This document shows, in pieces, positions 22,780 to 46,383 of a DNA stretch of 64,000 nt. The notes under the pieces are model-generated. The model was not told the origin of the DNA, made no database searches, and worked only from the letters and a program-made list of their open reading frames with translations. Position 1 is the first letter of the stretch, and every line of letters begins with the position of its first letter. The position numbers and the translations under genes are program-made. The stretch is taken from NCBI GenBank assembly GCA_950295325.1, contig OX485805.1:5208501-5272500 (forward strand), read 5' to 3'. This DNA comes from Polytrichum commune. Its lineage: Eukaryota > Streptophyta > Polytrichopsida > Polytrichales > Polytrichaceae.

Positions 22780-22820
22780 TATGTGAGCGTAGAGCGGAGA
22801 GCGGAGATTTGGAGAGCGGA
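22780..22820 (+). repeat. Element B left terminal inverted repeat
   Basis: Starts TATGTGAGCG and continues through AGAGCGG repeats to GGAGAGCGGA. It matches the reverse complement of 43657-43696 with one substitution and one single-base indel. A short second match (CCTATTTCCGTGG) follows further inside both ends, near 22,936 and 43,605. Confidence 0.85.
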
Positions 22821-23911: not shown

Positions 23912-26900
23912 CTAAGAAGTAGACTTTGTCAAAAGACCCCCTTCGAGGATGAGTTTGACTTCGTTGAAGCTAAATGTCGGGGCGTGAATGAACAAATTCA
24001 CTTCCGCATCCAAATTAGAAACCTTGATGAAAATGTAATACAAATGCTTACAATTCAAATAAGAATTTCGTTTGCGGCTGAACTTGGAAATCATATCCAA
24101 GAAAAATGCGCAGTTGCACTCTGGAAGAGAACTGACTGTCACTTGGTAGATCGGTGGTTGGGGTTCTGATTTGGACTGCAGTGTGATAATGCAACCAAAT
24201 CCCGGTTGAGGGATCATAGTTAACTTCATAACGGTACCATGCATAGCTTCAGCAGAGGCCACCATCTGCCTCTGCTTTGCCGAAGGTGCGCTACTGGATC
24301 GCCGAACAAGCTTGGACAATCTTGTCGGAGGGATCATGTCGGGGTTTTCTGGAACACGGATTCCAGACATATCCAGCGGGGGAGCAGAGTTGGTGAAGAG
24401 TTGAGTCGGTGTGATGCGCTCCTTTGGTGGGAGTTGAAAACCTGCGTTCTCAAGGGCGAAGATATCCGAGCGGGTGAGGTTGGTACCAATCTTCACGGGC
24501 CAGATTGGGGGAATAGGAGGCTTCTGGTCATGAGCAGAGAACGGCATGACCCATTTCCGACGAGGGCCCTTCACGCAACGCTCAATGTCGTCGGGGCAAA
24601 AGACAAAGTCCGTGCGCTTCATAGATTGGAGTTTGTAATGATGCCACATACCGGTGTAGGTCGGCGCAGGGACGCTCTTATTATTAGTGACGATTCTTGC
24701 GGTGCACTTCTTCTTCGTGCCCGCATGATTAGCCCAACAAGACTTCCCAGACGTATAGGGTATGCGGGCAATATGCCAAAGAGAGACATCTACTTTGGTT
24801 TCTTGCACGGCAGTGACACGCTGGAAACCAAGTCCTGCAGGTGAAGGCACTTGAACCTCTTGTACAGAGGGGGAAGACTCCTCAATGATAGTGGGTAGTG
24901 TTTCTGGTTGAGATCGAGTGACACGCTTACCGGGGGGAGGGCGAGAGAAGTTCACGGTATCGGGGCGGTGGGTCTCGCCATCATCACCAATTGGAGTGTC
25001 TGATCTTCGCTTCTGCGATCCAAACACCTCGGCGCCCTCAAGGTGTGGATCGCGAGTGCAAAATTCTTCCCCACCGGACATGTCAAGCAAGACCTTCTGC
25101 AACACTGTGGGGTCGCCAGTACGCTGAGCTCGACGTTGAGCACCCCTGAGCTTTAGTTCTTCTTTGCTTGGACCATCTCCGCCAATTCCACCTTTAAGGA
25201 ACTGGTAGTATGCAACAACTTGTAAGAAGGCGCGAATGTAGTCGTCAACCGTAGCCACGTATAGATCTCCACCCTTGTTGCCGGAGGCTTGAAGCCATTT
25301 GTTGTAGACGGACTCCGCAAGATTGCACGACGGCATCTCGGCCAATTGGTCTTGGGTTAAAACCTTTTCCTGATTGGAGAAATCAAGTATTAATATAAAT
25401 GTACAGAGAGAGGAAATCGAATCCAAGAAAAACCAATAATGAATTATGAAGGAGATGTACCAGTTCCATGAAACCACCCCATTGAAGGTAGCGGAAGTGC
25501 CAAAAAGCAAGCCAGAGCTGAAGATGCTTGAGACCGTCCTCACTTGTACAATTCGATGACGCCCACCAAGCCTTGATAGCTAGGTACCTAGTCTCAGCCT
25601 CTTCCATAGATGACGCATTTCGATATTGAAGGCAAAGATGTCTATGTTGGTCTTGTAACTCATGCTTTATATACGATTTCGTATGTTTTTCGAGCGATTG
25701 TTTCCAATGGAAAAAACAAGTGCGCTCACGACCCTCCATTGGAACTTTGGGATCCCCCGAACCATATACAATGCGAACATCGTTCCAATTGGCTTGGGCA
25801 CTGTCCGCCATGAAGCCTATAAAGTTTGGATGTGGGATACTGTGAGGCCAAACCCCCCACCCTTAAGCGTCCGTAGTCCGAGTAGTGGGTTTGGGCTCAC
25901 ATTCCTCCGCGGTATTGGATTTGGACTTGGATGAGTCCATAGTGCAAGGTTCACCCTTCAAGTGGTCTTGGATTTAACTGGAATTTCACTTTTAACAACT
26001 CAATGTACAATTTCAATACGTATGTGGAGAATGCACAAGTTAACTATGTTATTTTAACCTCCTTATGCTCGGGTGCTATTTTGTCTTTGTTTGCTTCTAA
26101 CGTCCATCCGGCCGCTTTAGCTACACAAGCCCTTAAGGATATCCCTCTCCTAAATGGAGTCCGTGCCGTTGACTCTATACTACCACTTGAACTATCACTT
26201 GTGTATTCCGTATCGCTACTATAAGAGGTCTCACTTGGTGTCTCCATACCGTACATAAGCCTTTAAGTATTAAGAAATACTTATGTGACTTATGTCAATC
26301 TCTCCCTCGCACCTTTGGTCTTTGCTTCCTTTGTCTTGCCACCGCGAGAGTGCTCCACATTCTCCATTAATTTGTGCACGTGGTTTATTTTTAAAGAGAG
26401 GATGCAAGTGTTAAAAAAAACACTATTCTCTATAGTCAATCTCAAATACATTTACTTGTGAAAGCCACCATAACACTAACTAGCATAATGTAACTAACTA
26501 CTTGTCTATGAGCTAATTAGGTAGGCTATCTACTAAGTTCCTTCATGAACCCATCTCTTTACTTTCTAATTACATAAACCTAGCTCCTTCATAAACCCAG
26601 GTCCTTCATAAACCCAGCTCTTTACTTTCTAACTAAACAAACCTAACTCCTTCATAAACCCAGCTCTTTACTTTCTAACTAAACAAACCCAGCTCCTTCA
26701 TAAACCCAGCTCCTTCATGAACCCACAACTTTGTAGTTGTAATCCCCAACTACCTCACTAATTATTCAAGCCCTTAACTAATCTTCCTACCTAATTTCCC
26801 TAATTCTACTAACAACCCCTTTCTAATCACACAATTCTTCTCTAATCCTAAAATCCTAAAATCCTAGAGAGGAGAGGGGGAGAGAGAATTTCCTAACTTC

Positions 26901-29690
26901 ACTAAGACTAACTAATCCACACAAGTATATTTTTGCACTCATCACAACATCAAGTGCTCAACTCTTAAACATGGAACTTGCAACCACGTGTATTCAAAAC
27001 ATGAACTTTAAGTACCACAAATTGGAATCATGAATTAACTTTAAAATCCTTCACGTCAACACTAATTCTACCAAGAGGTCAAGCCCTCTTCAAGGCTAAC
27101 AAGCCTTGGCTCTCAAACTAAAAACTAAGCACACACATGTGCTCCAATATGGCTTCCCACACCCATACTTATAACTCGTGGGGTGCCTTGGAGCACAAAG
27201 GAAAGAGAGGATGAGTGAGGGAAGAATGAGGGATTATATAGTAAGCTTGAGGGGGTGAGCACCCTCAAGGCTCACGATAAGCCCTTGAGATTTCCTCCTA
27301 CTTAGTAGGCGCCAATCCTATCTTCTAAGCCTTCCTCCCTCAAATGATCAACAAGGATCCTAATTCGAACATTTAACTAGCCTTGGCTTTCTACCTACCA
27401 CACTTTACCAAACTTGGGATGCTTCAACCCAAACTTAGCCTCCTTCGCTTTCCGCCGCCATAACTTTCTCCCCTTACCTTCCCAAATCGTCGCTCACCAC
27501 TTAATTCAAACCACGATGCTTAACTCGTGATTTGATTGGTGCTTTGAGAATTTGCTTATCCTCCACCTTGCATTCTTCCTTGGGCCTTCCCCATTAAGTG
27601 GCCATGATGAGGTGGTCCACTTGTGCGCTCCATGTGATCCTCCATTCATCCCAATTCGAATGCACTTGCCTCTTGAGTCACTTTGGTTGTCTCCATCCAT
27701 TTGTACTAGCCTACTCACTAACTACTCAATCCAAGTTCTCCTTACCTATCCTCATTCACTCAAATCCTTCCGAAGGTAAAAACACAATAACAACTCACAT
27801 CCTAGCCTCTTACAACATGGTACTTCTAAGACTAACATTTCACTCTTTTAATATTTTTGTGAAGTAACATGCTACTTCAAAGTGCATCAACTAACGTTTC
27901 AAGGGTCTAAGACTAAATGTGGGCACCCTTTTGGGCTCACAGATACCGTGTCGGGCCATGACGTGGTTGAGGTTCTGCCAGAAGAGAACTTGGGCATCCT
28001 TATCCTCCGATTGGAAATCACAACATGAAATGGTCATGACCCGTTGATAAGTCCCATCGTACATATGAGCGGCCATGGTGGTCCACCCTTTGACCCGCTT
28101 CACGTGATCGGACATCATCCACGCGTTCTCCAGGTCCCCACCCGGTTGCATCCGACGAACCAAATCCACTCCACTTCCAGGACCAACCTCCGACATCTTG
28201 AAGACGAACACCTTGTCTGTATCGTCACCTTGTCCTGGGAATTGGTTCCGTTGGACGTAGGCCCAATTGCTAACGCCTCGGAGCTTTGCGATGCCATCCA
28301 TAACACCAAACCTCCGCAAATATTTGAAAGAGGTAACCTTAGAGCGAAGGTTTGGGGAATTCAACTCTCTACAGCTCTCAAAAACAGGTTCAAGCTCTTT
28401 TAAAGAGAAGAGACGGTGTGTGTCATTATCGCCAGAAAGGAGAAACTCACCAACAATGTCCTTGCTAGCTTCAAGGACGATCTTGCTGTGGGTGGCTTGA
28501 GGCGTACGTTCAACGTGCTCCTCAAGAAGTGCATTGATACGCTTCCGACTGTCTCTGCAGTCTCCAACCTTCACTGGATGTTGATGAGAACCGAGATGAA
28601 TGCAGGCTCTTTGGGATGACTCCTTCCCATGGACGTAGAAGATTTTGGCCTCGCATAGTGCAATGCATTTGGGAGGCTCTTTACAGATCCTGCAGACAAG
28701 AGTAGATCCGGATGGCACAATGCCAGAGAGACGGAAAGGATCTTTAGTGAAACCTTCAAATTCTGTGTCATTGACCTTAGAGGTACGATGGGCGCGTTGA
28801 AGGTAATCACAACTCGGGTTTTGGCATTGGAGATGGCCAACACAGGTAGAGGAACGAAATGCAAGGCCAACGTCGTTTGTAATGTTGGTGGTTTGAGTCT
28901 TAGTCCAAACATGGCCATCATATTGCTTGTCCATGCCGTCCAACGACTTGGCCCTGGTTTGAGATGAAGAGACTTCTGCTGCAGGGAGGACAAATAACTG
29001 GGTGCCATCGAAACGAGGGGGAAGGTGATTAACTTCTTGGATTTTGATTTTATCGTAATCTATTTTCTTGAGGACGTTCTTACTACCGGGCATAGAGCCA
29101 AGACGACGAAGACATTGAACAATAGTTTGAGGAGGTTTAGACGTAGGGACCGAAGGAGTTGAAGGGACAGAGCTAGATGGAGAAGGCGTTATGTAGGATG
29201 CAAAGGGAAACAAATGAGGGGAATCATGGACAGCAACCTTATACACTGGTACATCTTCACTCGAAGAATCAGACAAGTCTATAACGTTGTCTACACCAAG
29301 CTCGGTCTTGACGCTTATTACGGGGGGTGTGCTAAAGGCAACAGTGGATGATCGAAGAGGAGGAAGGATTTCTGTTGACACTTCCATCTGAGAATCTGGC
29401 CAGCCACAAACCCTATACTTTCCCGCGCCAAGCTCCCACACTACATTGCCATTGTCAGTTATCTTGGAGGTCTCATGGAAGGTATGAACGAGCAATCCAG
29501 TATCAGGATGGTAGATCTCACGCTCTACCCATATTGTACTAGCTTTCAAAGAGAACCTAATGCTAAGATGAAGCTCCGAGACAACAACAATACCTTGTGC
29601 ACCAATGGGGAATATAATAGGGACCCCGATGCCATGTGAACGAAGTTCGGCCATCTCAGAGACGGGAGGAAGAATTGAGGTGGAAGCCAT
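23912..29690 (-). CDS. MULE-like transposase with SWIM zinc finger
   Basis: Three exons with matching phases, 27947-29690, 25461-25816 and 23912-25369, encode about 1185 residues. The middle of exon 1 has a zinc-binding region (CQNPSCDYLQRAHR, then CRICKEPPKC and a CIHLGSHQHP stretch) like the WRKY/GCM-type DNA-binding domains of plant transposases. The RNase H-fold follows: WTTMAAHMYDGTYQRVM carries the likely first Asp, and GFMADSAQANW across the exon 1/2 junction the second. The acidic third residue should be in exon 2 (MEEAETRYLAIKAWW is one candidate). Exon 3 ends in a SWIM finger pattern, CNC then CKH. This order is typical of Mutator-like transposases. Intron 1 (25,817-27,946) is long. 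The ATG at 29690 follows the last upstream alternative start. No internal stop was seen, so it may be active on the element B ends. Confidence 0.75.
26576..26726. repeat. Short tandem repeat in the transposase intron
   Basis: Repeated blocks of CTCCTTCATAAACCCAGCTC and TTTACTTTCTAACTAAACAA alternate several times with small variations. It lies in intron 1 of the transposase gene. The rest of that 2.1-kb intron is AT-rich with no supported gene. Confidence 0.7.
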
Positions 29691-30009
29691 GAAGGCAGAG
29701 AAAGCAAACGTGAAGGAACAAAGATGCAAAGATGCATAGAGAAGGAGAATGGTGATGACGATGAAGTTATAAACAAATACGCATGAATATCAGGAAGGAG
29801 ACAAAACTGTCAGGCATCCTAAAAAAAGATACCCCTAATTACAAAGATGGTTGTCAGATAGTAAAGCGCGCCTCCCATCGGGAGGTATTGCAATTATATA
29901 CTGAGAAGAATGCGATTGCTCACTTTCTTTCCAATGTGTGAGTTTGATGTGGTGAGGTTGTGGAAAGGAAATAGAGCGAATAGGTCTGAATTGCGGGAGG
30001 GTTGAACAC
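29691..30009. promoter_or_regulatory. Divergent promoter region inside element B
   Basis: A 319-bp gap separates the ATGs of the transposase (-) and of the gene at 30,010 (+), so the two must share or abut promoters. I see no A- or B-type palindrome in it and no unambiguous TATA box. Confidence 0.45.
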
Positions 30010-30958
30010 ATGAAGGAAATAGGCAATTCACAACCTCCGACAACGGAACCATCTAAGAAAAAGAAGAGGAGGCGATCGTCTACACATTACACTGATAAGA
30101 AGAGAAAGACAGTGAGGACACAAAAGTCACAGGCAAGGAAAGCGCCAATTGAGGGCCGTGGGACGCCCGAGGATTTGAGCCAAAGCATAAAGGACCTGCG
30201 GAAACCTTCGTGGAGGTTAGACTGTGGGATTCGGCCTTTTCATTTATCACCGATTGTAGAAGAGGCGGACGGAAGTAAAGCGCAACCAATGGCAGAAGTG
30301 GAGGAGTTGGGAAACGACAGCATCCAAGAGGACTCACGCGAAGAGACAAACTCTACAAGTGTCGTACGTATTCTTCGGGTTCTCCATATATTCAGTTGTT
30401 TGAGCACATAATGAAAATGGTAGAACATATTCAACTGTGAAACAACTTTTCTTTTAGATATTATGGTTTGTCATCATTGTTATAAACATTGTTTTATCTT
30501 AAATATAGGAAGAGGGGGGGAGTGGAGATAGTGGAAATATCTATGAAGAAGACAACAAGGAGGTAGCACAACAAATTGAGAAGGCGTTAGAAGAGCGAGA
30601 ACCGATGTCGGGACAACCAACGATTCAAGCAAGAGAAAAAATGAAGGCGTCCAAGAGGAAAGCGGCAAAGGAAGATCTGAAATCAAATTTGTTGGGAGGC
30701 CGCGAAAGAGCTGAAGGAGGAGACCCATGCGCAGAAACCCTAAGTGTGGATGTTGTAACCCCTGCTTCAAGATTTCTGCGAAGCAAGGCGGGCGGAACAC
30801 AACAAACATCAAGGCGAGGGCGTGGCCGCGGGAGAGGAATGGCGCAAATAAACCTCGGAGATTCGAGAAGCACTCCAATATCGCCGACAGAGGACGGGAC
30901 CTCGGAAGATAGTGGCGCCAATATAGGGGCTTCAGTGGAGGGCATACTCCAAATTCTG
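30010..30958 (+). CDS. Basic/acidic nuclear-like protein, possibly the N-terminus of the ParB/methyltransferase-like protein
   Basis: Two exons, 30010-30363 and 30509-30958, give 268 residues with intron GTACGT...ATATAG. The protein is low complexity: a Lys/Arg-rich stretch near the start (KKKKRRR), acidic stretches, and an RGRGRGRG tract near residue 225. It looks like a nuclear, nucleic-acid-binding tail rather than a folded enzyme. The second exon ends at a GTAAGG donor in phase 0. The next good acceptor in compatible phase is at 38,510, directly before the ATG of the ParB gene, so the two may be one gene with a 7.55-kb intron containing the palindrome array. It may instead be a separate gene ending at the TAG at 31,028. 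Confidence 0.5.
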
Positions 30959-33900
30959 GTAAGGTGTCGGGATCTCGGCCAAGCTATGTTCGCCAACGTT
31001 TTTGCTTTCTATCACCTTGATTTCTCATAGTATTTGGAATATCAGCTTGACTTGCTTTCGGCCTTGTCTTGATTTGGGTTTAGGAACATGTTAGGAAAGG
31101 TATGTTTGTGCTTGAAAAATCAAAAGGTTATGTGCACATCATGTTGCTCTCGGCCTTGTCTCGTTTTGTGTAGTGCACAAGAACGAGCTAGGGCAAGAGG
31201 CCTCGGATCCGAGGCCTCATATTTGTGTAAGTTTGAGTATGTGAGAGGTAGGGTTTTGAGGGAGGTGAGGTTCTTGATTTCTCAACCTAATAGAATGTCA
31301 ACTTTCTTGCTTTCTTGATTCCTTGCTCTCGGCCATTTCTTCTATTGTGTAGTGCATAAGTGGGAGCCATAGGAAGAGGCCTCGGATCCGAGGCCTCTTA
31401 TTTGTGGGTAGGTTTGTGCTTGAAAAATCAAAATGTTATGTGCACATCAATTGCTCTCGCCCTTGTCTTGTTTTGTGTAGTGCATAAGAAGGAGCTAGGG
31501 GAAGAGGCCTCGGATCCGAGGCCTCTTATTTGTGTAAGTTTGAGTATGTGAGAGGTAGGGTTTTGAGAGAGGTGAGGTTCTTGATTTCTCAAACTAATGG
31601 AATGTCAACTTTCTTGCTTTCTTGATTCCTTGCTCTCGGCCATTTCTTCTATTGTGTAGTGCATAAGTGGGAGCCATAGGAAGAGGCCTCGGATCCGAGG
31701 CCTCTTATTTGTGGGTAGGTTTGTGCTTGAAAAATCAAAATGTTTTGTCCACATCGATTGCTCTCGGCCTTGTCTCGTTTTGTGTAGTGCATAAGAAGGA
31801 GCTAGGGCAAGAGGCCTCGGATCCGAGGCCTCATATTTGTGTAAGTTTGAGTATGTGAGAGGTAGGGTTTTGAGGGAGGTGAGGTTCTTGATTTCTCAAC
31901 CTAATAGAATGTCAACTTTCTTGCTTTCTTGATTCCTTGCTCTCGGCCATTTCTTCTATTGTGTAGTGCATAAGTGGGAGCCATAGGAAGAGGCCTCGGA
32001 TCCGAGGCCTCTTATTTGTGGGTAGGTTTGTGCTTGAAAAATCAAAATGTTATGTGCACATCAATTGCTCTCGCCCTTGTCTTGTTTTGTGTAGTGCATA
32101 AGAAGGAGCTAGGGGAAGAGGCCTCGGATCCGAGGCCTCTTATTTGTGTAAGTTTGAGTATGTGAGAGGTAGGGTTTTGAGAGAGGTGAGGTTCTTGATT
32201 TCTCAAACTAATGGAATGTCAACTTTCTTGCTTTCTTGATTCCTTGCTCTCGGCCATTTCTTCTATTGTGTAGTGCATAAGTGGGAGCCATAGGAAGAGG
32301 CCTCGGATCCGAGGCCTCTTATTTGTGGGTAGGTTTGTGCTTGAAAAATCAAAATGTTTTGTCCACATCGATTGCTCTCGGCCTTGTCTCGTTTTGTGTA
32401 GTGCATAAGAAGGAGCTAGGGGAAGAGGCCTCGGATCCGAGGCCTCTTATTTGTGTAAGTTTGAGTATGTGAGAGGTAGGGTTTTGAGAGAGGCGAGGTT
32501 CTTGATTTCTCAAACTAATGGAATGTCAACTTTCTTGCTTTCTTGATTCCTTGCTCTCGGCCATTTCTTCTATTGTGTAGTGCATAAGTGGGAGCCATAG
32601 GAAGAGGCCTCGGATCCGAGGCCTCTTATTTGTGGGTAGGTTTGTGCTTGAAAAATCAAAATGTTTTGTCCACATCGATTGCTCTCGGCCTTGTCTCGTT
32701 TTGTGTAGTGCATAAGAAGGAGCTAGGGCAAGAGGCCTCGGATCCGAGGCCTCATATTTGTGTAAGTTTGAGTATGTGAGAGGTAGGGTTTTGAGGGAGG
32801 TGAGGTTCTTGATTTCTCAACCTAATAGAATGTCAACTTTCTTGCTTTCTTGATTCCTTGCTCTCGGCCATTTCTTCTATTGTGTAGTGCATAAGTGGGA
32901 GCCATAGGAAGAGGCCTCGGATCCGAGGCCTCTTATTTGTGGGTAGGTTTGTGCTTGAAAAATCAAAATGTTATGTGCACATCAATTGCTCTTGCCCTTG
33001 TCTTGTTTTGTGTAGTGCATAAGAAGGAGCTAGGGGAAGAGGCCTCGGATCCGAGGCCTCTTATTTGTGTAAGTTTGAGTATGTGAGAGGTAGGGTTTTG
33101 AGAGAGGTGAGGTTCTTGATTTCTCAAACTAATGGAATGTCAACTTTCTTGCTTTCTTGATTCCTTGCTCTCGGCCATTTCTTCTATTGTGTAGTGCATA
33201 AGTGGGAGCCATAGGAAGAGGCCTCGGATCCGAGGCCTCTTATTTGTGGGTAGGTTTGTGCTTGAAAAATCAAAATGTTTTGTCCACATCGATTGCTCTC
33301 GGCCTTGTCTCGTTTTGTGTAGTGCATAAGAAGGAGCTAGGGCAAGAGGCCTCAGATCCGAGGCCTCATATTTGTGTAAGTTTGAGTATGTGAGAGGTAG
33401 GGTTTTGAGGGAGGTGAGGTTCTTGATTTCTCAACCTAATAGAATGTCAACTTTCTTGCTTTCTTGATTCCTTGCTCTCGGCCATTTCTTCTATTGTGTA
33501 GTGCATAAGTGGGAGCCATAGGAAGAGGCCTCGGATCCGAGGCCTCTTATTTGTGGGTAGGTTTGTGCTTGAAAAATCAAAATGTTATGTGCACATCAAT
33601 TGCTCTTGCCCTTGTCTTGTTTTGTGTAGTGCATAAGAAGGAGCTAGGGGAAGAGGCCTCGGATCCGAGGCCTCTTATTTGTGTAAGTTTGAGTATGTGA
33701 GAGGTAGGGTTTTGAGAGAGGTGAGGTTCTTGATTTCTCAAACTAATGGAATGTCAACTTTCTTGCTTTCTTGATTCCTTGCTCTCGGCCATTTCTTCTA
33801 TTGTGTAGTGCATAAGTGGGAGCCATAGGAAGAGGCCTCGGATCCGAGGCCTCTTATTTGTGGGTAGGTTTGTGCTTGAAAAATCAAAATGTTATGTGCA

Positions 33901-33969
33901 CATCAATTGCTCTCGGCCTTGTCTTGTTTTGTGTAGTGCACAAGAACGAGCTAGGGCAAGAGGCCTTCT

Positions 33970-34465
33970 CTACACTTGTTTTGGAACACATAAAAGAGGC
34001 CTCGGATCCGAGGCCTCATTCACAAACTAGTTTACATCCTCAAAAACAAGCGAAGTGCCTCATTCATACAAGTTATACTTTGAATCAAAAAACCTCAAGT
34101 GGCCTCGGCCGAGAGGCCTCGGATCACTTTGGCCGAGAGGCCTCGGATCACAAGCTAGAGGCCTCTCGGCCACTTTGGTTGGTTTTGAGTATGTAAACTA
34201 GTTTGTGAATGAGGCCTCGGATCCGAGGCCTCTCTTATGTGTTCCAAAACAAGTGTACGGAAGAGGCACTTTGGTTGGTTTTGAGTATGTAAACTAGTTT
34301 GTGTGTAAGGCCTCGGATCCGAGGCCTCTCGGCCGAGGCCACTTGAGGTTTTTTGATTCAAAGTATAACTTGTATGAATGAGGCACTTTGCTTGTTTTTG
34401 AGGATGTAAACTAGTTTGTGAATGAGGCCTCGGATCCGAGGCCTCTTTTATGTGTTCCAAAACAT
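33970..34465. repeat. Long inverted repeat within the palindrome array
   Basis: About 150 bp at 33,977-34,117 recurs as a nearly exact reverse complement at 34,315-34,460, with a loop of roughly 200 bp. Each arm carries B-type palindromes and the block TCGGCCGAGAGGCC. The arms would form a long cruciform or, if transcribed, a long hairpin RNA. Confidence 0.75.
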
Positions 34466-34618
34466 GTGTACGGATGAGGCACTTTGGTTTGTTTTGAGTA
34501 TGTAAACTAGTTTGTGAATGAGGCCTCGGATCCGAGGCCTCTCTTATGTGTTCCAAAACAAGTGTACGGAAGAGGCACTTTGGTTGGTTTTGAGTATGTA
34601 AACTAGTTTGTGTGTAAG

Positions 34619-35500
34619 GCCTCGGATCCGAGGCCTCTCGGCCGAGGCCACTTGAGGTTTTTTGATTCAACGTATAGCTTGTATGAATGAGGCACTTTGC
34701 TTGTTTTTGAGTATGTAAACTAGTTTGAAAATGAGGCCTCGGATCCGAGGCCTCCTTTTAGTGCCCTCGATCAGCAGTCCCCAGGGAGTGGCTCCCGGGA
34801 CTCCGAATGTTCAAACAGGCATAACTTCCTTGATTTTTGCCCAAATGGGGCAAGTGAGGTGTCCATCGGCATCTACATTTCACGTAGATGACGATAGAGT
34901 GGTTGATTGTTAGATTCGGAGACCACACGTGGAAGATATGGAGGTCTGAAGCTGCCGGGGGGGGGAAATGTGTTTTGTTAAGTGCATATGTAGAAGCTAG
35001 GAGAAGAGGCCTCGGATCCGAGGCCTCTTTTATGTGTTCCAAAACTAGTGTACGGATGAGGCACTATGGTTGGTTTGGAGTACGTAAATTACTTTGTGTG
35101 TGAGCCCTCGGATCCGAGGCCTCTCAGCCGAGGCCACTTGAGGTTTTTTGATTCAACGTATAGCTTGTATGAATGAGGCACTTTGCTTGTTTTTGAGTAT
35201 GTACACTAGTTTGAAAATGAGGCCTCGGATCCGAGGCCTCCTTTTAGTGCCCTCGATCAGCAGTCCCCTGGGAGTGGCTCCCGGGACTGCGAATGTTTAA
35301 ACAGGCATAACTTCCTTGATTTTTGCCCAAATGGGGCAAGTGAGGTGTCCATCGGCATCTACATTTCACGTAGATGACGATAGAGTGGTTGATTGTTAGA
35401 TTTGGAGACCACACGTGGAAGATATGGAGGTCTGAAGCTGCGGGGGGGGGGGGAAATGTGTTTTGTTAAGTGCATAAGTAGGAGCTTTGGGAAGAGGCCT
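34619..35500. repeat. Direct duplication of ~487 bp within the array
   Basis: The segment starting near 34,619 repeats from about 35,106 with few differences. Each copy contains a unique ~250-bp block not seen elsewhere in the array. That block has two small hairpins: a GGGAG...CTCCC stem near 34,784 and 35,270, and CATCTAC...GTAGATG near 34,870 and 35,357, followed by a poly-G run of 8-11 bases. Confidence 0.75.
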
Positions 35501-37130
35501 CGGATCCGAGGCCTCTTTTTTGTATCAAGGTTTGTGCTTGAAAAATCAAAATGTTAGGTTCATTTTTGAATTCTCTCGGCCATTTTCTGTAGTATGTATT
35601 TCATAAGGAGGGGCATTCGGAAGAGGCCTCGGATCCGAGGCCTCATTTTTGTGTCAAGGTATGTGCTTGAAAAATGAAAATCTTATGTTCATTTTTGAAT
35701 GCTCTTGGCCTTCTTGTTTTGGGTAGTGCATAAGTAGGTACTTTGTGAAGAGGCCTCGGATCCGAGGCCTCATTTTTGTGTCAAGGTATGTGCTTGAAAA
35801 ATGAAAATCTTATGTTCATTTTTGAATGCTCTTGGCCTTCTTGTTTTGGGTAGTGCATAAGTAGGTACTTTGTGAAGAGGCCTCGGATCCGAGGCCTCAT
35901 TTTTGTGTCAAGGTATGTGCTTGAAAAATGAAAATCTTATGTTCATTTTTGAATGCTCTTGGCCTTCTTGTTTTGGGTAGTGCATAAGTAGGTACTTTGT
36001 GAAGAGGCCTCGGATCCGAGGCCTCATTTTTGTGTCAAGGTATGTGCTTGAAAAATGAAAATCTTATGTTCATTTTTGAATGCTCTTGGCCTTCTTGTTT
36101 TGGGTAGTGCATAAGTAGGTACTTTGTGAAGAGGCCTCGGATCCGAGGCCTCATTTTTGTATCAAGGTATGTGCTTGAAAAATGAAAATCTCATGTTCAT
36201 TTTTGAATGCTCTTGGCCTTCTTGTTTTGGGTAGTGCATAAGTATGTGTTTTGGGAAGAGGCCTCGGATCCGAGGCCTCATGTTTGAGTCAATTTTATTT
36301 AAGAAAAATCAAAATGTTATGTTCGTGTAAGATTACTCTCGGCCTTCTTGTTTTGGGTACTACATGAGTAGGAGGTTTGTGAAGAGGCCTCGGATCCGAG
36401 GCCTCTTGTTTGTGTAAGTTTGAGTATGTGAGAGGTAGGGTTTTGAGAGAGGCGAGGTTCTTGATTTCTCAAACTAATGGAATGTCAACTTTCTTGCTTT
36501 CTTGATTCCTTGCTATCGGCCATTTCTTCTATTGTGTAGTGCATAAGTGGGAGCCATAGGAAGAGGCCTCGGATCCGAGGCCTCTTATTTGTGGGTAGGT
36601 TTGTGCTTGAAAAATCAAAATGTTATGTGCACATCAATTGCTCTCGCCCTTGTCTTGTTTTGTGTAGTGCATAAGAAGCAGCTAGGGGAAGAGGCCTCGG
36701 ATCCGAGGCCTCATATTTGTGTAAGTTTGAGTATGTGAGAGGTAGGGTTTTGAGAGAGGCGAGGTTCTTGATTTCTCAAACTAATGGAATGTCAACTTTC
36801 TTGCTTTCTTGATTCCTTGCTATCGGCCATTTCTTCTATTGTGTAGTGCATAAGTGGGAGCCATAGGAAGAGGCCTCGGATCCAAGGCCTCTTATTTGTG
36901 GGTAGGTTTGTGCTTGAAAAATCAAAATGTTATGTGCACATCAATTGCTCTCGGTCTTGTCTTGTTTTCTGTAGTGCATAAGAACCAGCTAGGGGAAGAG
37001 GCCTCGGATCCGAAGCCTCCTATTTGTGTAAGTTTGAGTATGTGAAAGGTAGGGTTTTGAGAGAGGTGAGGTTCTTGATTTCTCAAACTAATAGAATGTC
37101 AACTTTCCTGCTTTTTTGGTTCCTTGCTCT

Positions 37131-37670
37131 CTGCCTTGTGCCCCACGGGTGAACACCCGTGGGCCATGTAACAAGTAATTTGGTTAGGTTTTAACATCAT
37201 CAAATGTGTGCCCCACGGGTGAACACCCGTGGGCCATGTAACAGGTAACTTGGGTAGGATTTAGCATCATCACGGGGAGATGTCTCCATGTCAAATATTT
37301 TTAAAAATTATGATTTTTTTTCTCTATATTCATAACTATTGATTATATCTTTTGTATATTTTTTTGAAATTTTTTGTCATCTTCATTTTTTCTAGTAATT
37401 GTTTTAGTTGAATTCTGCGTCATTCTAGGTAGAAATGGTATGTTTTCTAGAAAAATATGGTCATCAAATTTGGTCATGATATTTTACTTCGTAATAGATA
37501 TCATGTATATCTACGTCCCAAAAAAATTTGAGAAAATTTTGACCCATTTTGGTGATGCAACTTGGCAATGGAGTGACCTCCCCTGGAACATCATCAAATG
37601 TGAACCTCACGGGTGAACACCCGTGAGCCATGTAACAAGTAAATTGGTTAGGTTTTAAAATCATCAAGGA
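37131..37670. repeat. Three CCACGGGTG hairpins around an AT-rich insert
   Basis: Hairpins at 37142-37163, 37212-37233 and 37606-37627 have a stem CACGGGTG / CACCCGTG with an AA centre, and are followed by the same tail (CCATGTAACAAGTAA, then TTGGTTAGGTTTTA, with small variations). In the third copy the outer pair changes on both sides (CCCAC...GTGGG becomes CTCAC...GTGAG), so pairing is kept. Between copies two and three lies ~340 bp of AT-rich DNA. The block interrupts the B-type palindrome array. Confidence 0.7.
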
Positions 37671-38513
37671 GGGGCATTTGGAAGAGGCCTCGGATCCGAG
37701 GCCTCATTTTTGAGTCAGGTTGTGTGCTTGAAAAATGAAAATGTTAGGTTCATTTTTTAATTCTCTCGGCCATTTTCTGTAGTATGTATTTCATAAGGAG
37801 GGGCATTCGGAAGAGGCCTCGGATCCGAGGCCTCATTTTTGTGTCAAGGTATGTGCATGAAAAGTTAAAATGTTATGTTCATTTTTGAATGCGCTTGGCC
37901 CTCTTGTTTTGGGTAGTGCATAAGTAGGTACTTTGTGAAGAGGCCTCGGATCCGAGGCCTCATTTTTGTGTCAAGGTATGTGCTTGAAAAATGAAAATCT
38001 TATGTTCATTTTCGAATCCTCTCGGCCTTCTTGTTTTGGGAAGTGAATAAGTATGTGTTTTGGGAAGAGGCCTCGGATCCGAGGCCTCATATTTGTGTCA
38101 ATTTTATGCTAGAAAAATCAAAATGTTATGTTCGTGTAAGATTGCTCTCGGCCTTCTTGTTTTGGGTACTACATGAGTAGGAGGTTTGTGAAGAGGCCTC
38201 GGATCCGAGGCCTCATTTTGGAGACAATGTATGTGCTTGAAAAGTCAAACTGCTATGTTCACATAAGATTTCTCTCGGCCTTTTTCTTTTGGGTAGTGCA
38301 TAAGGAGGAGGTAGGAAAAGAGGCCTCGGATCCGAGGCCTCTCATTCGTAGGTAGGTTAGTGCTAGAGTTGAGCACTTGACTTAGCATTCGGCCATTTCC
38401 ATTTGTAGTTTGCTCTCGGCCTTGTATTGTTTTTGTGAGGATTTGTTTATTTATAGTTACGAAGTTATTGACTTTTCTTTGTGAAATTCTCATTTTCTCC
38501 ATGTTCTTAGGAT

Positions 38514-41500
38514 ATGGACTCTTCACAGGTTGCGCAATCGCAACCCCAATCTGGAGAGGATGTTGTTCTTGCGGCCCCCGCGGTTGAAGTTGAAGCTGTG
38601 CAGGTTGAGAGTCTCAATTCGCAGGGCCCATTACAAGTAGAGGTGAGTTGGATAGTTGTTGAATAATTTGTTAAGCAAGTTTTTTGAGTTCTAGCTTTCT
38701 AAGCATGGTTTTATTGTTTGTGTTTTTGTTAGGCTCTCGCAATGAGCGAAGATGCCGTTCAAGCAGTTGCCGACACGGATCCCGTGGTGTGTGAGCTTGA
38801 GCTTCGGAAATCACAAAAGGAGGACTCCATTGGTGTTATCCAACGCCTTCGGATTAAGCCAACATGTAAGTCCCGCTTATCCATTCCTTTATGCCGCTTG
38901 AGAGCCCTCCCTCTCGTCCGTCCTATCAGTGAGGTTGAGGTGCAGCGCTTGGAATGTGAATTTGTAATGGGATACCGAGAGGGTGATCGGGTTTTTTACG
39001 TGTCTTCTTTCAACGACGTTCCCGTGGACCTCCCCATTCCCCCTGGCATTATGGCCTCTTGGAGCCCTCTCTGGCAAGAGGCCTCCGCAGAATTTGACGC
39101 CAAGCTCAAGGAGGATCCGGATCTTGCACATTTCGCCGGGAAGATGTTCTTCGTCTGGGAAGGCAATCATCGTCTCACCGCTTGGTGGAGACACATCAAT
39201 AACCACCACGCCGATGACAAGAGTTGGCATATCTCGGTGGATTGCATTGTTGTTGACCCTAGAGGATACACCGGTATATTTCTCAATGCCATGAGCGACA
39301 TTAATTGGTAAGCTCATTCATTTTTTTCATTCATTTTTCATTTTTGTTTCAATTCTTTTCCATTCTTTTCAGCTCACGTTCCTCACATATTTTTTCTCAG
39401 GTCAACCGAGCATGATTATGTCAAGGCAAACATTCCGGCCAAGCTCCTTCGAATCCGCACTTTTGGGAGGTTAGAGTTGTCCACCTTCAAGGATCTTATA
39501 TCGCCATCTGACTACAAAGCATGCGAGAAGATAAAGGAGAGTCGCCCAACTTGGTACACCTTGACCGCGGATGTGTTCGTTAAGTTTCTTTACAAGGTAT
39601 GGTTTTATGCATTCAATCATTTAGAGCTTCCAACATAGATAATTTCCATACCGATTATATGAACTCACAAGGTCATTTCTTGCAGAGAGACATTTTGGCT
39701 CAAGCAGACCTTGCAGTGAGGCATTACCGTGAGACCACACCCGTTGCGGAGAGGTCGGCCACTGAGATTTGGAATGTTATGACCAAGGCCCAGGAGAGGA
39801 CAATCAAAAGTATTCGGGCCCGTTCTTTTGAGAAGTACATATCCGTTGCACACCCTGACAATGGAGAGGATTTCTTTCATGAGGTACTCTTTTGAACTCA
39901 AATCACTCTTGAACGCAATTCATCCAAATCACTCTTCAACTCTATTACTCTTTTGAATTCAAATCATTTTTATTTTGTGCACAGATTGACCGTTATTTTA
40001 ATGAGTTCTCTTCGACGGACATGACAATTGAAAAATTACAAAAAATTGTCACATGCCCGGTCGAAGCTTCGTTCAAAGCTAAGTGGCTTCACTGGTGGAA
40101 CGCTCCCCTTCGTGAAAGGTTAGATAACAAGTTCCCCGTCGACAAGCCTATGAAGGAGAGGGCTTTGGACGACTGGCTACACAAGGCGTCCTTCTGGGCT
40201 CAAGTAAATCCATTCCTCGGCCTTCTTCATTTTCATTTTCCTCTATTCCATTTATCTCATATCTAATCATCTCCTTCTCTGCAGTTGGAGAAAGAAGTCG
40301 CGGTTGAAATTGAGACCTTAGAGGAGAGCCTCTCCGTCGACATTGATTGGGACGCATCAGAAACTATCTTGCGCCCTCGTGAGTACGTTGATCATTGGCG
40401 GATTGTCCTTTGGGACAAGGCCTTCAAGCCTTATCTCGGCGATAAGCCTGACATCGCATTTGCCAAAGGTGATAATCTCTTGGAGTTCGAGGAGGGGGCT
40501 CTCGCTATCAAGCGTGTAGCCTATCGGTAATACATCTATCCTCCACTTTGCACCTCTCCTTAATGTCATTTCTTGCTCGTTTTGTTGGTTTTCTTACATT
40601 CTTGTTTTGTCATGTAGGTATATCATGAGAGAATTGGTTGTGAAGAATGCATTGGCCTCATCTTCCTTGCCGGACTACCTCTCGGACTGGGTGAATATTT
40701 TTTCTAGCCTCTGCGTGTATACGACCGCGCAAACAAACAAGTTTTCCGAATTGCACTTGCAGGGTGGTGGATGGTACTTGGATTGTGCTGCAGGATTTGT
40801 CCCCGGGGAAGAGAAGGCTTTGTTTGCTAGCCTTGTGGGTAGTGCTCTGGATAATAACATTGTTACCTTGGAGGACCCTGACATCGTTGAGCTTCCCCCT
40901 CCTCCTCCTAAGGCACCAAGGAGAAAGGGCAGAGCAAAGAAGACCGCCACTCAAGCATCTTCCCAAATTCTCACTCGGTCTGCTTCTAAGACCCCGGTTG
41001 AGCCACCCACCCTTCCACACAGTCCATCTATCGCTCCCTCCGTTGCTCCCTCTCTTGCCCCTTCTGTTACTCCATCTGCATTTCATCCACAATCTCTTGC
41101 CACTCCATCTCATAGTGGCACTTCTCTCCTCTCTTTGCCTCGCAAGAGGAAGGCCGCTCTCTTGGATACCAGTGCCACCTCTTCGGATGCCACTAACACG
41201 CTTACCCTCATCGAAAATGTGGACATGGTTCAACTAATGCTGGATTCCGAGGTTGCCGGAGGTCCCCTCCCCGCATATACCTGCATCCAAGAGTTCATTG
41301 CCAAGGTTTGTATACTTGCCTTCGTCAATTCTCAATTTTTTTTCCTTTGCTTTGTTTATTTTTTTCCTTCTTGTTTTCTCATGAAGTTTCAATTGCAGGT
41401 TGGGGCAGGTCGTTCCCGTGTGAACACCTCGACTACAACTCACAAGGGCCTCGATTTGCTCTTCGCCGACATTCCCGAAAATTTGCCGGTGCCGAACATC

Positions 41501-42714
41501 TCCACCGATGTTCCTGCTTGGAACAAGCTCCATGAATCATACTATGAGTGTCTTTTTGCATTTGCGAAATCTAACCTCTATGATCATGGTGTCCTTGTTC
41601 TTGCCCATTGTGCGAGTGCCAGTGTTTCTAGGAGTATTTTCGATTGGGCACACACTTATGACTTCTACGTCGCGGAAGATTGGTTTGGAATGAATGATTT
41701 AGACCTCCAATCTCCCGTTGTTCCCTCTGGAGTGGTAAGCAAGTCTCCCTCTCTTCCCCTTCCGTATTGCTTATCATTTCAATTTCAATTCAATTTCAAT
41801 TCCATTTCATTTCAATTCAATTTCATTTTCATTGTTGCAGATTCGGAAGTTCAACATCAAAGTTCTTGTTCGTGTTAACTCCGTTCTTAGAGTGCGGGAG
41901 GAGGCCATACAAGAGTATGGTTACAACCTCCAACGAGATGGATGGTTGAATACCTTCACCGATGAGAAGAGCCAGACGATGCGCAGTGATGGGGTACCTT
42001 GGCGAGGTGCCCGTGAGAAGCATCCTGTTTTTTTTTCCATCCTTCTCGCTACTCTCACCGACAAGAATGATGTTATTATGGACTGGCAGTGTAGTGTAGG
42101 TACGCCTTCTTTTTCAACTTCATCCTTACTTTGAATTTTCCATTATTTTTCCTTGACTAGTTTTCATACTAACATTTTACCTCTCTTTGCTTTAGGTGGT
42201 TCGATTACAGCATGTCGCTCCCTTGAGCGGCATATTGTGGCCCTTGAGAGTGACCCTGTCATTTTCAATTCACTCCTACTCCCCATGCGCGATCCCCAGC
42301 CTGCGCGTATATCTCGCTCAGTTGCCGCACCGTCTACATCTATCTTTGATCCTCCTCAAAAGATGACCAAGAGGGCATTCGGATTTCTTTGTGCGTAAGT
42401 TTGCTTTCTATATTTTGCCATGTTTGCTTTGATTTCAAATTCTCATTTTCTAGTGTCATCATGTTTCTAATCCTTTTGCTTGGGTGTTTAGAGAGCCAGC
42501 GGAGGTCGCAGTCATTCGTCGAGACATGTTTTCAAGTCTTCCGAAGCCGTTTGAGCTTCCCCCGTATGCTAGTGCAATGGCGGATTGTTTTGCGAAGGCG
42601 GAGTCCCCATCTCCTCCTCGCGTTCGTCATTTCTCGCGTGGAACACGAAATCTTTTCTTGTTAGAAGCAAATGAGGGTGAGGAGAGTGATAGGGAATGTT
42701 CTCTAAGCCCTTAG
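38514..42714 (+). CDS. Element B ParB-like plus DNA-methyltransferase-like protein (intact)
   Basis: Eleven exons whose phases all close: 38514-38642, 38733-39307, 39401-39596, 39686-39883, 39985-40203, 40285-40526, 40618-41305, 41399-41734, 41841-42099, 42196-42394 and 42492-42714. They give 1087 residues, more if joined to the exons at 30,010. A ParB/sulfiredoxin-type fold is indicated by IPLCRLRALPLVRPISEVEV, then FFVWEGNHRLTAWWRHI (GNHR at residues ~187-190), then WHISVDCIVV. Exon 7 encodes a Pro/Ser-rich, basic linker. Exons 8-10 look like a beta-class N4/N6 DNA methyltransferase: LDLLFADIPE at the motif IV position (773-776, where DPPY is usual), LYDHGVLVLAHC, then KHPVFFSILLATLTDKNDVIMDW and GGSITACRSLERHIVALESDP at motifs X/I/II. 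The SAM-binding DPFxGSG is replaced by DWQCSVGGS. Catalysis is therefore doubtful. I infer binding to the adjacent palindromes, as ParB binds parS. Confidence 0.75.
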
Positions 42715-43656: not shown

Positions 43657-43696
43657 TCCGCTCTCCAATCTCCGCTCTCCGCTCTCCGCTCACATA
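43657..43696 (-). repeat. Element B right terminal inverted repeat
   Basis: Forty bases, ending CGCTCACATA, that are the reverse complement of the left end. The repeat is built of CCGCTCT units. CTTG follows at once, then the element A frame continues. Confidence 0.85.
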
Positions 43697-43700
43697 CTTG
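43697..43700. other. Right target-site duplication of element B (CTTG)
   Basis: The second copy of CTTG directly abuts the right terminal repeat. The reading frame of element A exon 3 continues from 43,701. Confidence 0.65.
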
Positions 43701-43867
43701 AGTTTCCCCATCCATCCGCGGAGATGGAGGATGTCCACATGGACACTCTCGACCTGGGCGGAGACGACGACGACGACGACGAGGCGGACCACATTGTGCA
43801 GACCCAGGCGTCACAGTCGGAGCATGCCATAGATGCCATGGAGACAGAGGCGGCTGGCCCAATGGGG

Positions 43868-43995
43868 ATTACGAACGCGCGTTCGTTAATCGAAGAGGAG
43901 GGAACTGCTCGGTCCAGCGCCGCTGCCCCTCCCCCCGATGACGAGGTAACTCTCCTCTGAGAATACCACTCATTTGACGAACGCGCGTTCGTAAC
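43868..43995. repeat. Two A-type palindromes at the exon 3 donor
   Basis: Copies at 43868-43889, inside coding sequence and read as ITNARSL in a different frame from the copy at 22517, and at 43974-43995, 28 bases into the following intron. Both have centre CG. Confidence 0.85.
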
Positions 43996-44304
43996 CACTA
44001 ACCCATGCGCGTTTTGTTCTTGGCGGTTCCTGTCCATCAGCATCACGAGGCGTGCGAGGACCCTTCTCTACGTGGACCCTTAGCCTGATAATTTTTGACC
44101 CTTAGCCCGATAAATTTTGTAGAACACGGCATGTATTTGCCATAGGAAATTGTGAAAAATTATCACGTGAGACAATTGCAAATATTCACCGAATTAATAT
44201 ATGAGCAGATGATCTCTGCGTCGCATCTCCCAAACTTATTGTATCGTATCGCATCTTGTATTATGTATGTTCATGCGCATCATTACACTTTCACACCCAC
44301 CTCA

Positions 44305-44417
44305 TTAACGAGCGCCCGTTCGTAAAAGGGTGCGACCATCTGTCCACCTCCTTCACGAACGACCGTTCGTAAATGATGCGCCACCCCAGCCTTCATTCAC
44401 GAACGCTCGTTCGCAAG
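44305..44417. repeat. Three A-type palindromes upstream of the HAD exon
   Basis: Copies at 44305-44326, 44352-44373 and 44396-44417, spaced 47 and 44 bp, with outer arms decayed (TTAACGAGCG, TTCACGAACG) but cores kept. Centres are CC, AC and CT. They lie in intron 43,946-44,530. Confidence 0.8.
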
Positions 44418-45418
44418 TCTGCACTTGACCACATTTTCCTTGCACTATTTTCCTCGCATAATCGTCTTTTCCTTAATGCAATGTTATTTATTGGATCATA
44501 GAATTAAACTAGTCGAGTTGTTAATCACAGGATCCCCCGGAGATAGGTCGGAGACCCTCGACCAGTGGACGTCTTACCCGAAACAAACCGTTCGTCGTGT
44601 TCGACCTGAACGGGGTGTTGTGTCACACCGAACACATCCCCCGGGTCCCCACGCGTCCCTTCCGTCACCCCGACGAAAGGGACTACGACGGAGAGCTCGA
44701 CACGCTCATTAACCGCAAGGCTGTCCGCGCCCGTCCCGGCCTGCGTGACTTCCTTCGAGAGGTGCTCGATGTAGCTCACGTCATTGTGTGGAGCTCCATG
44801 GTCATGGAGAACACCGAGCCAATCGTCGACTTCCTCTTCCGCGATCTTCCGAGGCCTTGCCTCATCCTCGGCCAAGAGGATTGCGATGAATTGCTTGACG
44901 AAAAGGGTATGCCGGTTCCAAAGTTCGGCGGTCAGGGCGGAGGACAACAATTCCTCAAGGTCCTGAGGTCAAGACTGTGGCGGGGCATCCCCCGGTTGCA
45001 GGGGGTACCCCACGGGTGGTGGCCGACCCCCGAGAACACCGTCCTCGTCGACGACAGCCCCACCAAAAGCGTCTTGAACCCCCCCGGGGAACGTCATCTT
45101 CCCCGCCACTTGGACCGGCGATAGGAATGACACGTTTTTGGTCGATACGCTAGCGCCTTACCTTAGAAGGCTTGTTGTCCACGCCGGTAGCATACCATTT
45201 TTTGTTAGGTCCAACCCCATCGGCAATGTGGGTTTAAGCCCCCGTGATAATGTATTCAAGAGCATCATGAGGCTCGCCAAACTCAATAAATTGATTTGAA
45301 ATTCCTCCATGTCTTTGCTTGTTATCGTGTGGTTCACATATCTAATGCTTGCTCTGTTTTGGATGTCTTTTGTTGTTGTGATTGTTGTTGTTTTTGTTGT
45401 TCTTGCCCATAGTCTGCC

Positions 45419-46383
45419 CCAATATGCTACGCCCCCGTGGTCGACGGCCCTTCCCGTCCCGTCTCGCCCCCTGCCTCCCCTTCCCGCGACGTCACGGACT
45501 TCCAAATGCCATCCCTCTACCACTTCTCGGCGGTCGACGCGGCCTCGGCCGTGGATTACTCCCGCGACGTCGGCATCGACGACGGTGTCGTCAACAGCCC
45601 GCCCCTCGCACTTGTCGCCCGCGCCTACGCCCCGTCGCCCTCCCCCCTCTCCAAGGAGAAACGGACGCTCGTTCGTTTGGGGCACCTCTCGCCCTCTAGG
45701 GACGACTGCGTCGCTCGTCGTGGGCCGAGCCGGCATCTCCGCATGGACTTTGCCCCCGCCGACTCCGTTCCTCCCCCCGCAACGTCATCCGCAATCGTGG
45801 GCCCTCCAGGCCTCGACTCCCCCCCGCCATCCAACAGTGCAATAGTTCCATCGGCTCCGGATGCTCCCGTCGACGCCCCCCTCGTTCCCACTGTTCCCCG
45901 CATGGACGTTCCCAAAGCCAAGGTGCCCTCCTCAACCCTAAACCCCTTTCCCGCTTTTGCTTTGCTTGTCTTCCGTGTGCGTGCCGTTCTCTTTACGAGC
46001 GCCCATCCCAAACCGCCCTCATTATTTTCCCCACTCCATTCCCATTCTTATCTTCCTATGACGTTGTTTCGCAGGTGGCTACCCGCTCGCTTGGTGCCCG
46101 GCCCTCCTCCACGTCCTCCTTGGATAGGCACGCCCTCAAGGCCGCATCTTCCGAGTCCGATCGTTGTCTGGCCCTCCGGAGAAGCGCAAGACGTTCCCTT
46201 TCGCAAACGCCCTCGTATTCTACTTATAATACCACCTCGTACAATTCGGGAGCGCGTCCTGAAACATGCAAGAACAACACATATTCCTGTCCAGGCAACA
46301 CACAAGGATACAGTCGTGGGCCTGAGATTTTTAGAGCCATGGAGGCCGCCAAAAAAAAGGACTTAGCCGCAAAAAAAAAATAG
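45419..46383 (+). CDS. Proline/serine-rich coding exons of element A, unknown
   Basis: An acceptor-like CCCATAG at 45418 opens a GC-rich frame (SAPICYAPVVDGPSRPVSPP...) that ends at a GCCAAG donor near 45,929. An acceptor TTTCGCAG at ~46,074 continues in phase 0 (VATRSLGARPSSTSSLDRH...) to a TAG at 46,381, ending in a Lys-rich tail. The product is low complexity and I recognise no domain. A degenerate A-type palindrome lies at 45658-45679 (read KRTLVRL) and a half-site near 45,992. It could be a separate gene, alternative 3' exons of the HAD gene, or decayed sequence. Confidence 0.3.
45658..45679. repeat. Degenerate A-type palindrome in coding-like sequence
   Basis: The cores ACGGACG and CGTTCGT are kept around centre CT; the outer arms have diverged. 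It is the most distal A-type site in the window. Confidence 0.6.

Follow-up and report, generated by a model that had tools for sequence, protein, structure and literature searches.

A 64,000-nucleotide (nt) stretch of the moss Polytrichum commune (assembly GCA_950295325.1, contig OX485805.1, positions 5,208,501 to 5,272,500 of the forward strand; hereafter the window) carries an intact, intron-containing gene at 38514–42714 whose product joins a predicted ParB/sulfiredoxin fold to a domain related to DNA methyltransferases (the ParB-MT gene). This is the accessory gene of a multicopy large DNA transposon with diverged, constrained subfamilies. Arrays of short motifs, mostly dyads, lie in the noncoding DNA of the same elements, and counts of their half-sites split by the N-terminal half of the protein (N-half), not by its C-terminal half (C-half). 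The best mechanism for this arrangement, and one towards which we lean, is by analogy that of VANC, the anti-silencing protein of Arabidopsis VANDAL transposons: an accessory protein that would bind its own element and counter its silencing.

The transposon spans 22768–43708 (+ strand; 20,941 bp), is bounded by terminal inverted repeats (TIRs) and sits inside another repeat element. Its ends recur in copies near 9.95 Mb of contig C3 and 34.53 Mb of contig C1 (the latter hereafter the C1 copy). The left TIR region (22768–22820, + strand) pairs with the right (43657–43708, − strand), 22779–22820 matching 43657–43697 at 95% when the window is compared with itself by blast. Read by eye from the flanks, a 10-bp target duplication, CATCCATCCG, stands on the left at 22758–22767 and on the right at 43709–43718; such duplications are present in all three copies with both ends read (likewise by eye), being ACTTCCGAAT at C3:9.95 Mb and CAACTGGCCA at C1:34.53 Mb. 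Genome searches, all made in the assembly to which the window belongs (408 Mb, 64 contigs), returned 45 matches to the TIR at up to three mismatches and 205 exon matches to the ParB-MT protein. Exon 7 was found at 30 or more places among the matches listed, the window's own counted; 14 of 30 are 97–99% identical, and at 14 of the 30 places listed an inward-facing TIR, sought at the same tolerance, lies no more than 5 kb downstream. The C1 copy, 16,631 bp long, matches the window copy at 99.6–99.8% identity across the left-hand 6.2 kb that was compared, an insertion excepted. From left to right the element contains a small open reading frame (ORF), the transposase (− strand), a small gene, 7 kb of arrays and the ParB-MT gene (+ strand); in the window copy the accessory gene is intact and the transposase exon is broken by that 2,097-bp insertion. 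The initial annotation had taken the gene for a long-domesticated one. A single host gene of that kind would accord with the intact frame and with the constraint described below, but near-identical copies are dispersed within one transposon with target duplications, which contradicts domestication for the window copy and leaves the idea with hardly any credibility.

The ParB-MT gene comprises 11 exons on the + strand, separated by introns of 81–106 nt that are GT-AG in 10 of 10 cases. Its spliced frame, 3,264 nt with the stop codon, encodes 1,087 amino acids (aa) with no internal stop and ends at 42714, bearing out the 11 exons with closing phases proposed from the letters by the initial annotation; GC content is 0.52 at third codon positions versus 0.32 in the introns. 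Exon 1 (38514–38642, aa 1–43) and exon 11 (42492–42714, with the stop codon) follow from the spliced frame. Exon 2 (38733–39307, aa 44–234; frame and predicted fold) bears the putative ParB/sulfiredoxin fold from about 38868 (aa 89), with the box GNHRLTAW. Exons 3 (39401–39596, aa 235–300), 4 (39686–39883, aa 301–366), 6 (40285–40526, aa 440–519) and 7 (40618–41305, aa 520–749), the last with a proline/serine-rich linker inside, are placed by frame and spliced alignment, and exon 5 (39985–40203, aa 367–439) by spliced alignment. The methyltransferase-like exons are placed by profiles and by comparison of loci: exon 8 (41399–41734, aa 750–861) has ADIPEN at the motif IV position, exon 9 (41841–42099, aa 862–947) contains PWRGAREK and the start of motif I (DVIMDWQC), and exon 10 (42196–42394, aa 948–1013) supplies the remainder of motif I and motif II (GGSITACRSLERHIVALESD). 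The motifs that had drawn attention to the gene, IPLCRL, WEGNHRLTAWW, VDCIVV, LLFADIPE, GVLVLAHC and DVIMDW...GGSITACRSLERHIVALESDP, are all present.

Spliced protein alignment recovered a matching exon series at eight other loci of the genome (L017, L018, L019, L020, L021, L028, L029 and L030), so the series is not a product of chance, and the predicted joining of the exons gains comparative support. Across the nine models, exon 3 measures 196 nt in nine of nine and exon 4 measures 198 nt in seven; those of L017, L021 and L029 differ around exons 4–5, and exons 9 and 10 are fused, intron 9 being lost, in L019, L021 and L028. Intron 5 extends to 1.6–2.4 kb in L019, L020, L021 and L028 versus 45–121 nt in the other five models, and array motifs lie inside the long intron 5 in all three loci checked (L019, L021, L028). 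Nei–Gojobori ratios of nonsynonymous to synonymous divergence (dN/dS), calculated for the window copy against each locus, are 0.14 for L018, 0.19 for L019, 0.20 for L028 and 0.21 for L030, and 0.18–0.22 for the methyltransferase-like domain in the same four comparisons. The value of 0.42 against L029 involves a decaying model with nine stops, the 0.78 against L017 comes from a pair too close to judge, and against L020 dS is saturated. Both domains are thus under constraint wherever dS is computable between diverged copies.

The case for a ParB-type domain is structural. An AlphaFold2 model of the exon-2 domain (predicted local distance difference test, pLDDT, 78.6; predicted template modelling score 0.71) was aligned best with Caulobacter and Myxococcus ParB (Z 8.3, root-mean-square deviation 2.1, over 93 and 89 residues; 7bm8). 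Among the 33 structural rows listed, 21 are named ParB, Noc, KorB, PadC or sulfiredoxin and eight SerK or SbnI; the remainder are two unnamed entries (1vk1 and 2hwj), which we take to be proteins of the ParB/sulfiredoxin fold, and two BrxU rows at Z below 3. The top Foldseek rows are likewise sulfiredoxin and ParB, the best at E 0.053. In an alignment of the window's exon 2 with 20 relatives, 32–80% identical to it, G144, N145 and H146 of the GNHR box are kept in at least 90% of sequences and R147 in 21 of 21; a G-x-x-R box forms the nucleotide site of the ParB/sulfiredoxin superfamily. A Z near 8 is by itself middling, and it is the agreement down the list of rows together with the conserved box that leads us to assign exon 2, as modelled, to the ParB/sulfiredoxin fold.

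The C-terminal part yields to sequence profiles instead. Alone, the window protein scores E 0.39 against DpnA; as a whole it matches no Pfam family at E up to 10, and direct Pfam, PHROG and PDB searches gave sub-threshold methyltransferase hints only. A profile of six sequences reached E 0.021 against DpnA, and PF01555 matched two of the six, at best with E 0.1. Searched against the whole genome, PF01555 found L067, an intronless chromosomal ORF that exceeds the Pfam cut-off (E 1.1e-7, positions 1–216 of 221). This ORF matches the family profile A2 at E 3.3e-16 (library-sized search space), and the ORF just upstream of it matches aa 340–440 (exons 4–5) of the window protein at E 7e-15, matches that place L067 in the same superfamily as the window protein. 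Profile A10, with L067 and two more families added, scores E 8.4e-7 against DpnA (best single stretch 4.2e-5) and 4.2e-4 against CcrM over 2–214 of 224. These comparisons make the C-terminal part a homologue of beta-class N6/N4 DNA methyltransferases, and the methyltransferase assignment of the initial annotation survives as homology, by way of DpnA and of L067's own match to PF01555, although no direct Pfam match of the window protein stands behind it. AlphaFold2 gave the methyltransferase region of L067 a pLDDT of 40.7, so the call rests on sequence.

In beta-class N6/N4 DNA methyltransferases motif IV has the consensus [DNS]PP[YFW], canonically DPPY. Motif IV was read at 23 loci, L027, L066 and L067 among them: it is DIPE in the window, DVPE, DISE, VIPE, DYPD, EYPD, DLPE, EYHD or DIPD elsewhere, and DIPY in L067, with DPP[YFW] at none of the 23. 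The corresponding stretch of motif I is CGVGG in seven of nine loci, CSVGG in the window, and broken in L029. Because DPPY is absent from all 23 loci, ordinary methyl transfer by the window family appears unlikely; the conserved D-x-P-E may serve another function. Of the functional version once envisaged, the intact frame therefore stands and a working methyltransferase is in doubt. An active N6-adenine/N4-cytosine methyltransferase, targeted by its ParB domain and marking the transposon's own DNA, would nonetheless find room in the homology to DpnA and CcrM, in the motif I of those seven loci, in the purifying selection on the domain and in a relative, L067, that keeps DIPY and GTG, and such activity is proposed for a similar Ectocarpus protein (PMC12477816). 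We judge it rather unlikely all the same, as the second proline of motif IV is missing from 23 of 23 loci and the aromatic residue from 22 of 23, and G is replaced by S in motif I of the window copy.

Intronless relatives of the C-half occur at C1:9661256–9662956 (L067), C4:44111581–44113281 (L066) and C5:16865163–16866863, 97–100% identical to the L067 ORF. L067 combines DIPY with SVGTG, and L066 DIPD with FVGTG. Judged by their motifs, these ORFs are the likeliest active methyltransferases among the relatives seen. A very long open frame considered as an intronless gene proved to be a run of N and was rejected. Remote relatives are abundant: searches with exons of one of them, L027, which scored about 150 out of over 1,000 candidates and in which pieces of a single locus make up a few of the rows, gave as lower bounds at least 151 matches for exon 2 (38–100% identical among the matches listed) and at least 150 for exon 8 (33–100%, likewise).

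Between the transposase and the ParB-MT gene, the noncoding arrays at 31197–38341 contain, by motif scan, 46 copies (up to two mismatches) of the 22-bp palindrome GAGGCCTCGGATCCGAGGCCTC, which occurs nowhere else in the window; none of 100 shuffles reached 46. Exact sites number 1,903 in the genome, versus none for the reversed control pattern, and of 50 sites listed out of the 1,903, 49 have, by hand count, a listed transposase copy no farther than 25 kb away. A repeat array is present in 10 of 10 other elements with the stretch read, and its motif varies by element: GAGGCCTCGGATCCGAGGCCTC in the C1 copy and L029, with a spaced version in L030; CCCTCTCGGATCCGAGAGGG in L020+L024 and L026; CACCCTCTCGGTTCCGAGAGGGTG in L028; AGGTTCAGATTATGAG with some CCTCTCGG in L019+L023 and L021; direct GCCTAGCCTCTCGGAA repeats in L022; and GCCTTAAGTGCTAAT in L027. 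For sites picked with the whole motif, the information in the palindrome comes to 1.93 bits per column, versus 1.06 and 0.86 in its flanks, a contrast that is partly circular; seeding with GGATCC only avoids picking sites by the motif itself. So seeded, the 50 sites of the window give 1.50 and 1.51 bits in the eight columns on each side versus 0.84 and 0.73 in the next 25, and the contrast is also clear in the C1 copy.

The half-sites follow one half of the protein. Elements with the window-type N-half have many copies of GGCCTCGG (94 in the window, 67 in L016+L017, 34 in L029 and 20 in L030, the last two stretches being partial) and few of CCTCTCGG (8, 5, 2 and 7, respectively). In L018, L019, L020, L021 and L028, which have the other N-half, GGCCTCGG is absent and CCTCTCGG occurs 90, 16, 55, 12 and 74 times. 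Recombinant proteins separate the two halves. Exons 2–6 of L019 are 82–95% identical to L020 and 55–73% to the window, and its exons 7–10 are 69–89% identical to the window and 48–66% to L020; L028 has the same pattern, a window-type C-half (exons 7–10) behind the other N-half (exons 2–6), and with it the other half-site. The exchange point lies near the exon 6–7 border, one exon downstream of intron 5.

We propose that the ParB-containing N-half probably recognises the dyad motif of its own element, much as bacterial ParB recognises parS. The bound protein might then, more tentatively, keep the element from being silenced, as Arabidopsis VANC does on its own tandem motifs; the methyltransferase-like half would act as a reader, scaffold or atypical modifier, and, with protein and motif diverging together, the effect would stay within the subfamily of the element. 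The parallel with VANC is drawn because tandem repeats that differ between elements, their placement upstream and in introns, and an accessory protein that varies more than the transposase each have a counterpart in these sequences. A bolder variant, independent of VANC, seems rather doubtful: a ParB clamp would load on parS-like palindrome arrays and spread, the methyltransferase-derived domain would shield or demethylate the element, and swaps of the two halves between subfamilies would create fresh combinations of target and effector.

Several observations weigh against recognition of the arrays by the protein and against the silencing role built on it. Homology to ParB rests on the predicted fold. 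PF02195 (ParB_N) is unmatched by the whole protein and by 21 of 21 exon-2 sequences, and it is the predicted fold (Z 8.3 to ParB) that bears out the earlier ParB/sulfiredoxin call; a PDB profile search with the exon-2 domain returned unrelated proteins only, Foldseek gave no row at E below 0.001 for the exon-2 model, and the PHROG 'ParB-like partition protein' family was hit by five of the 21 sequences, at best with E 0.046, among unrelated families scoring alike. A Pfam search at E up to 10 found neither of the VANC domains, DUF1985 and DUF287, in the ParB-MT protein. As for the arrays, their spacing is minisatellite-like, the GGATCC-seeded contrast is small in L029, L030 and L026 and close to nil in L020+L024 (0.80 and 0.92 versus 0.74 and 0.73 bits), and the main repeat of L019 (25 copies) and L021 (21 copies) is TTCAGATTATGA. 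Arrays of CTCTCGGATCCGAGAG also occur in L026+L031 (C4:50382300–50399000, 16.7 kb beside a transposase copy), where no ParB-MT homologue was found. N-half and motif could, moreover, travel together through linkage alone, since the arrays lie beside the N-half, some of those in L019, L021 and L028 falling within the 5′ half of the gene itself. Nor can the elements be counted as independent cases: a single recombination event probably gave rise to the recombinants, and the window copy is nearly identical to the C1 copy. The reading of the arrays as ordinary minisatellites of the element, unrelated to the protein, is favoured by their regular periods (127, 307 and 486 bp, for example), by the weak motif contrast in some elements and by physical linkage, which could account for the co-divergence; yet the array types of the window, with diverged spacers, have the 22-bp palindrome in common, and dyads recur in related elements as different sequences, and for these reasons we think this unlikely.

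A part for the protein in transposition or copy maintenance was weighed against the proposed relief of silencing. Here ParB-like loading on the arrays would assemble a nucleoprotein complex and so aid synapsis, end-finding or transposase recruitment, to be compared with the second ORF of Mutator. The gene does keep a fixed place beside one TIR, in the direction opposite to the transposase; the L018 element has arrays between the gene and the nearby TIR too; and ParB proteins in general load at palindromes and then spread. The arrays of the window, however, lie mid-element, between genes, and the accessory protein is 59–78% identical to the window's in L018, L019, L020, L028 and L030, versus 84–90% for the transposase exon (one N-terminal stretch of the L020 exon is at 77%). 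An accessory protein that diverges beyond its transposase is more in keeping with an arms race than with a structural role, and a transposition factor is accordingly held to be improbable.

The remaining contents of the transposon were read from ORFs and by comparison of copies. A small ORF at 23283–23750 (+ strand) recurs in the C1 copy, as does a small gene at 30010–31030 (+ strand) formed of two ORFs taken by eye as exons. The probable 3′ part of the transposase gene is an ORF at 23912–25579 (− strand) with a SWIM-like CxC...CxH seen by eye. The broken exon, a 766-aa open frame in the C1 copy and in many others, is represented in the window by pieces at 25387–25844 (− strand, start approximate; comparison of copies) and 27942–29789 (− strand; genome search and comparison of copies); 74 candidates for this exon were scored in the genome, at 83–100% identity where matched at full length. 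The 2,097-bp insertion between the pieces (25845–27941), absent from the C1 copy, has a 9-bp duplication at its edges and is perhaps another small transposon.

Outside the transposon, the element into which it is inserted (element A, 14870–22757 and 43719–45676) has a palindrome of its own, ACGAACGNNCGTTCGT, with 24 sites at up to two mismatches versus 0.03 expected, and ORFs at 18489–19580, 20020–21387 and 21513–22898. The second of these ends in GETVYNVFGGSKF, motif-I-like by eye, and has no Pfam match; comparison of element A with the ParB and methyltransferase profiles gave nothing convincing (best E above 1). An ORF at 44525–45124, on the right-hand side of the transposon, encodes an NLI-interacting-factor-type phosphatase (PF03031, E 3.5e-10) and may be a captured host gene.

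Were binding and relief from silencing true, the moss element would have solved VANC's problem a second time by unrelated means, assembled from parts of bacterial segregation and DNA-modification systems, and streptophytes would join the algae as hosts of a little-known class of transposon proteins. The evolution of DNA specificity could then be followed in the numerous ParB domains and dyad motifs that its subfamilies pair naturally, and a programmable tool for acting on plant epigenomes might follow; the dyad motif lends itself to a simple binding test.

Among known systems, Mutator-like elements resemble this one in its 10-bp duplication (theirs are of 8–11 bp; PMC6446971), its TIRs and the SWIM-like CxC...CxH. 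Their transposase profile, PF10551, is not matched by the element, which is therefore not filed with them; neither transposase ORF has any Pfam match above cut-off, no similarity was detectable to three of the genome's 142 PF10551 matches, and by these two comparisons no superfamily could be assigned from sequence. In domain order the nearest parallel is bacterial or phage-like: a 443-aa ORF at L064:820–2151 has ParB_N (E 1.9e-11) followed by N6_N4_Mtase (E 1.5e-19). That fusion is compact and intronless with a canonical DPPY, whereas the plant protein includes several hundred residues of middle region and linker. L064 is among the small contigs C10, C12 and C23 of genome G000 (L063–L065, L068–L070), which hold bacterial or phage-like ParB and methyltransferase genes and are probably contaminants. 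Fungal DNA transposons that carry TET/JBP dioxygenases, thought to counter silencing (PMC12730594), are likewise DNA transposons with an epigenetic DNA enzyme; enzyme and host are different, and the catalytic motif of the ParB-MT protein is altered. The initial annotation knew of no described eukaryotic transposon family with a ParB–methyltransferase fusion, but one exists: in Ectocarpus, the 21.5-kb transposon Sola1-1_Ec32 encodes a 1,104-aa protein with a ParB-like and an N4/N6 methyltransferase domain, suggested to bind and epigenetically modify its own sequence, and similar transposon proteins of green and red algae are cited, Petroll et al. 2025 being among the works cited (PMC12477816). 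This kind of protein is thus already known from algae; no land-plant report was found among the matches listed in the open-access literature, by titles and abstract openings. As described there, Sola1-1_Ec32 is alike in the domain pair, in protein length (1,104 versus 1,087 aa), in element size (about 21 kb) and in a strand opposite to the transposase; compared by description, only the moss element has a streptophyte host, 10-bp duplications, an altered motif IV and element-specific dyad arrays. What looks new here is accordingly the streptophyte host, the 10-bp-duplication element, the altered catalytic motif and dyad arrays that co-vary with the ParB half. The genome's GRAS genes, with 70 matches as opposed to none in any of 14 prokaryote controls, also indicate a streptophyte. 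With VANC of the Mutator-type VANDAL elements, the moss system shares a fast-diverging accessory gene beside a more conserved transposase and tandem motifs, particular to each element, that lie in introns and other noncoding DNA: the tandem repeats targeted by VANC are found ahead of the transposase gene as well as within introns, one element's repeats differing from those of its relatives, and VANC itself is more variable than the transposase (PMC5735166). The two differ in that VANC has DUF1985/DUF287 and a demonstrated anti-silencing activity, whereas the ParB-MT protein, which matches no Pfam family, would by analogy have reached the same end with a predicted ParB fold and a methyltransferase-derived partner.

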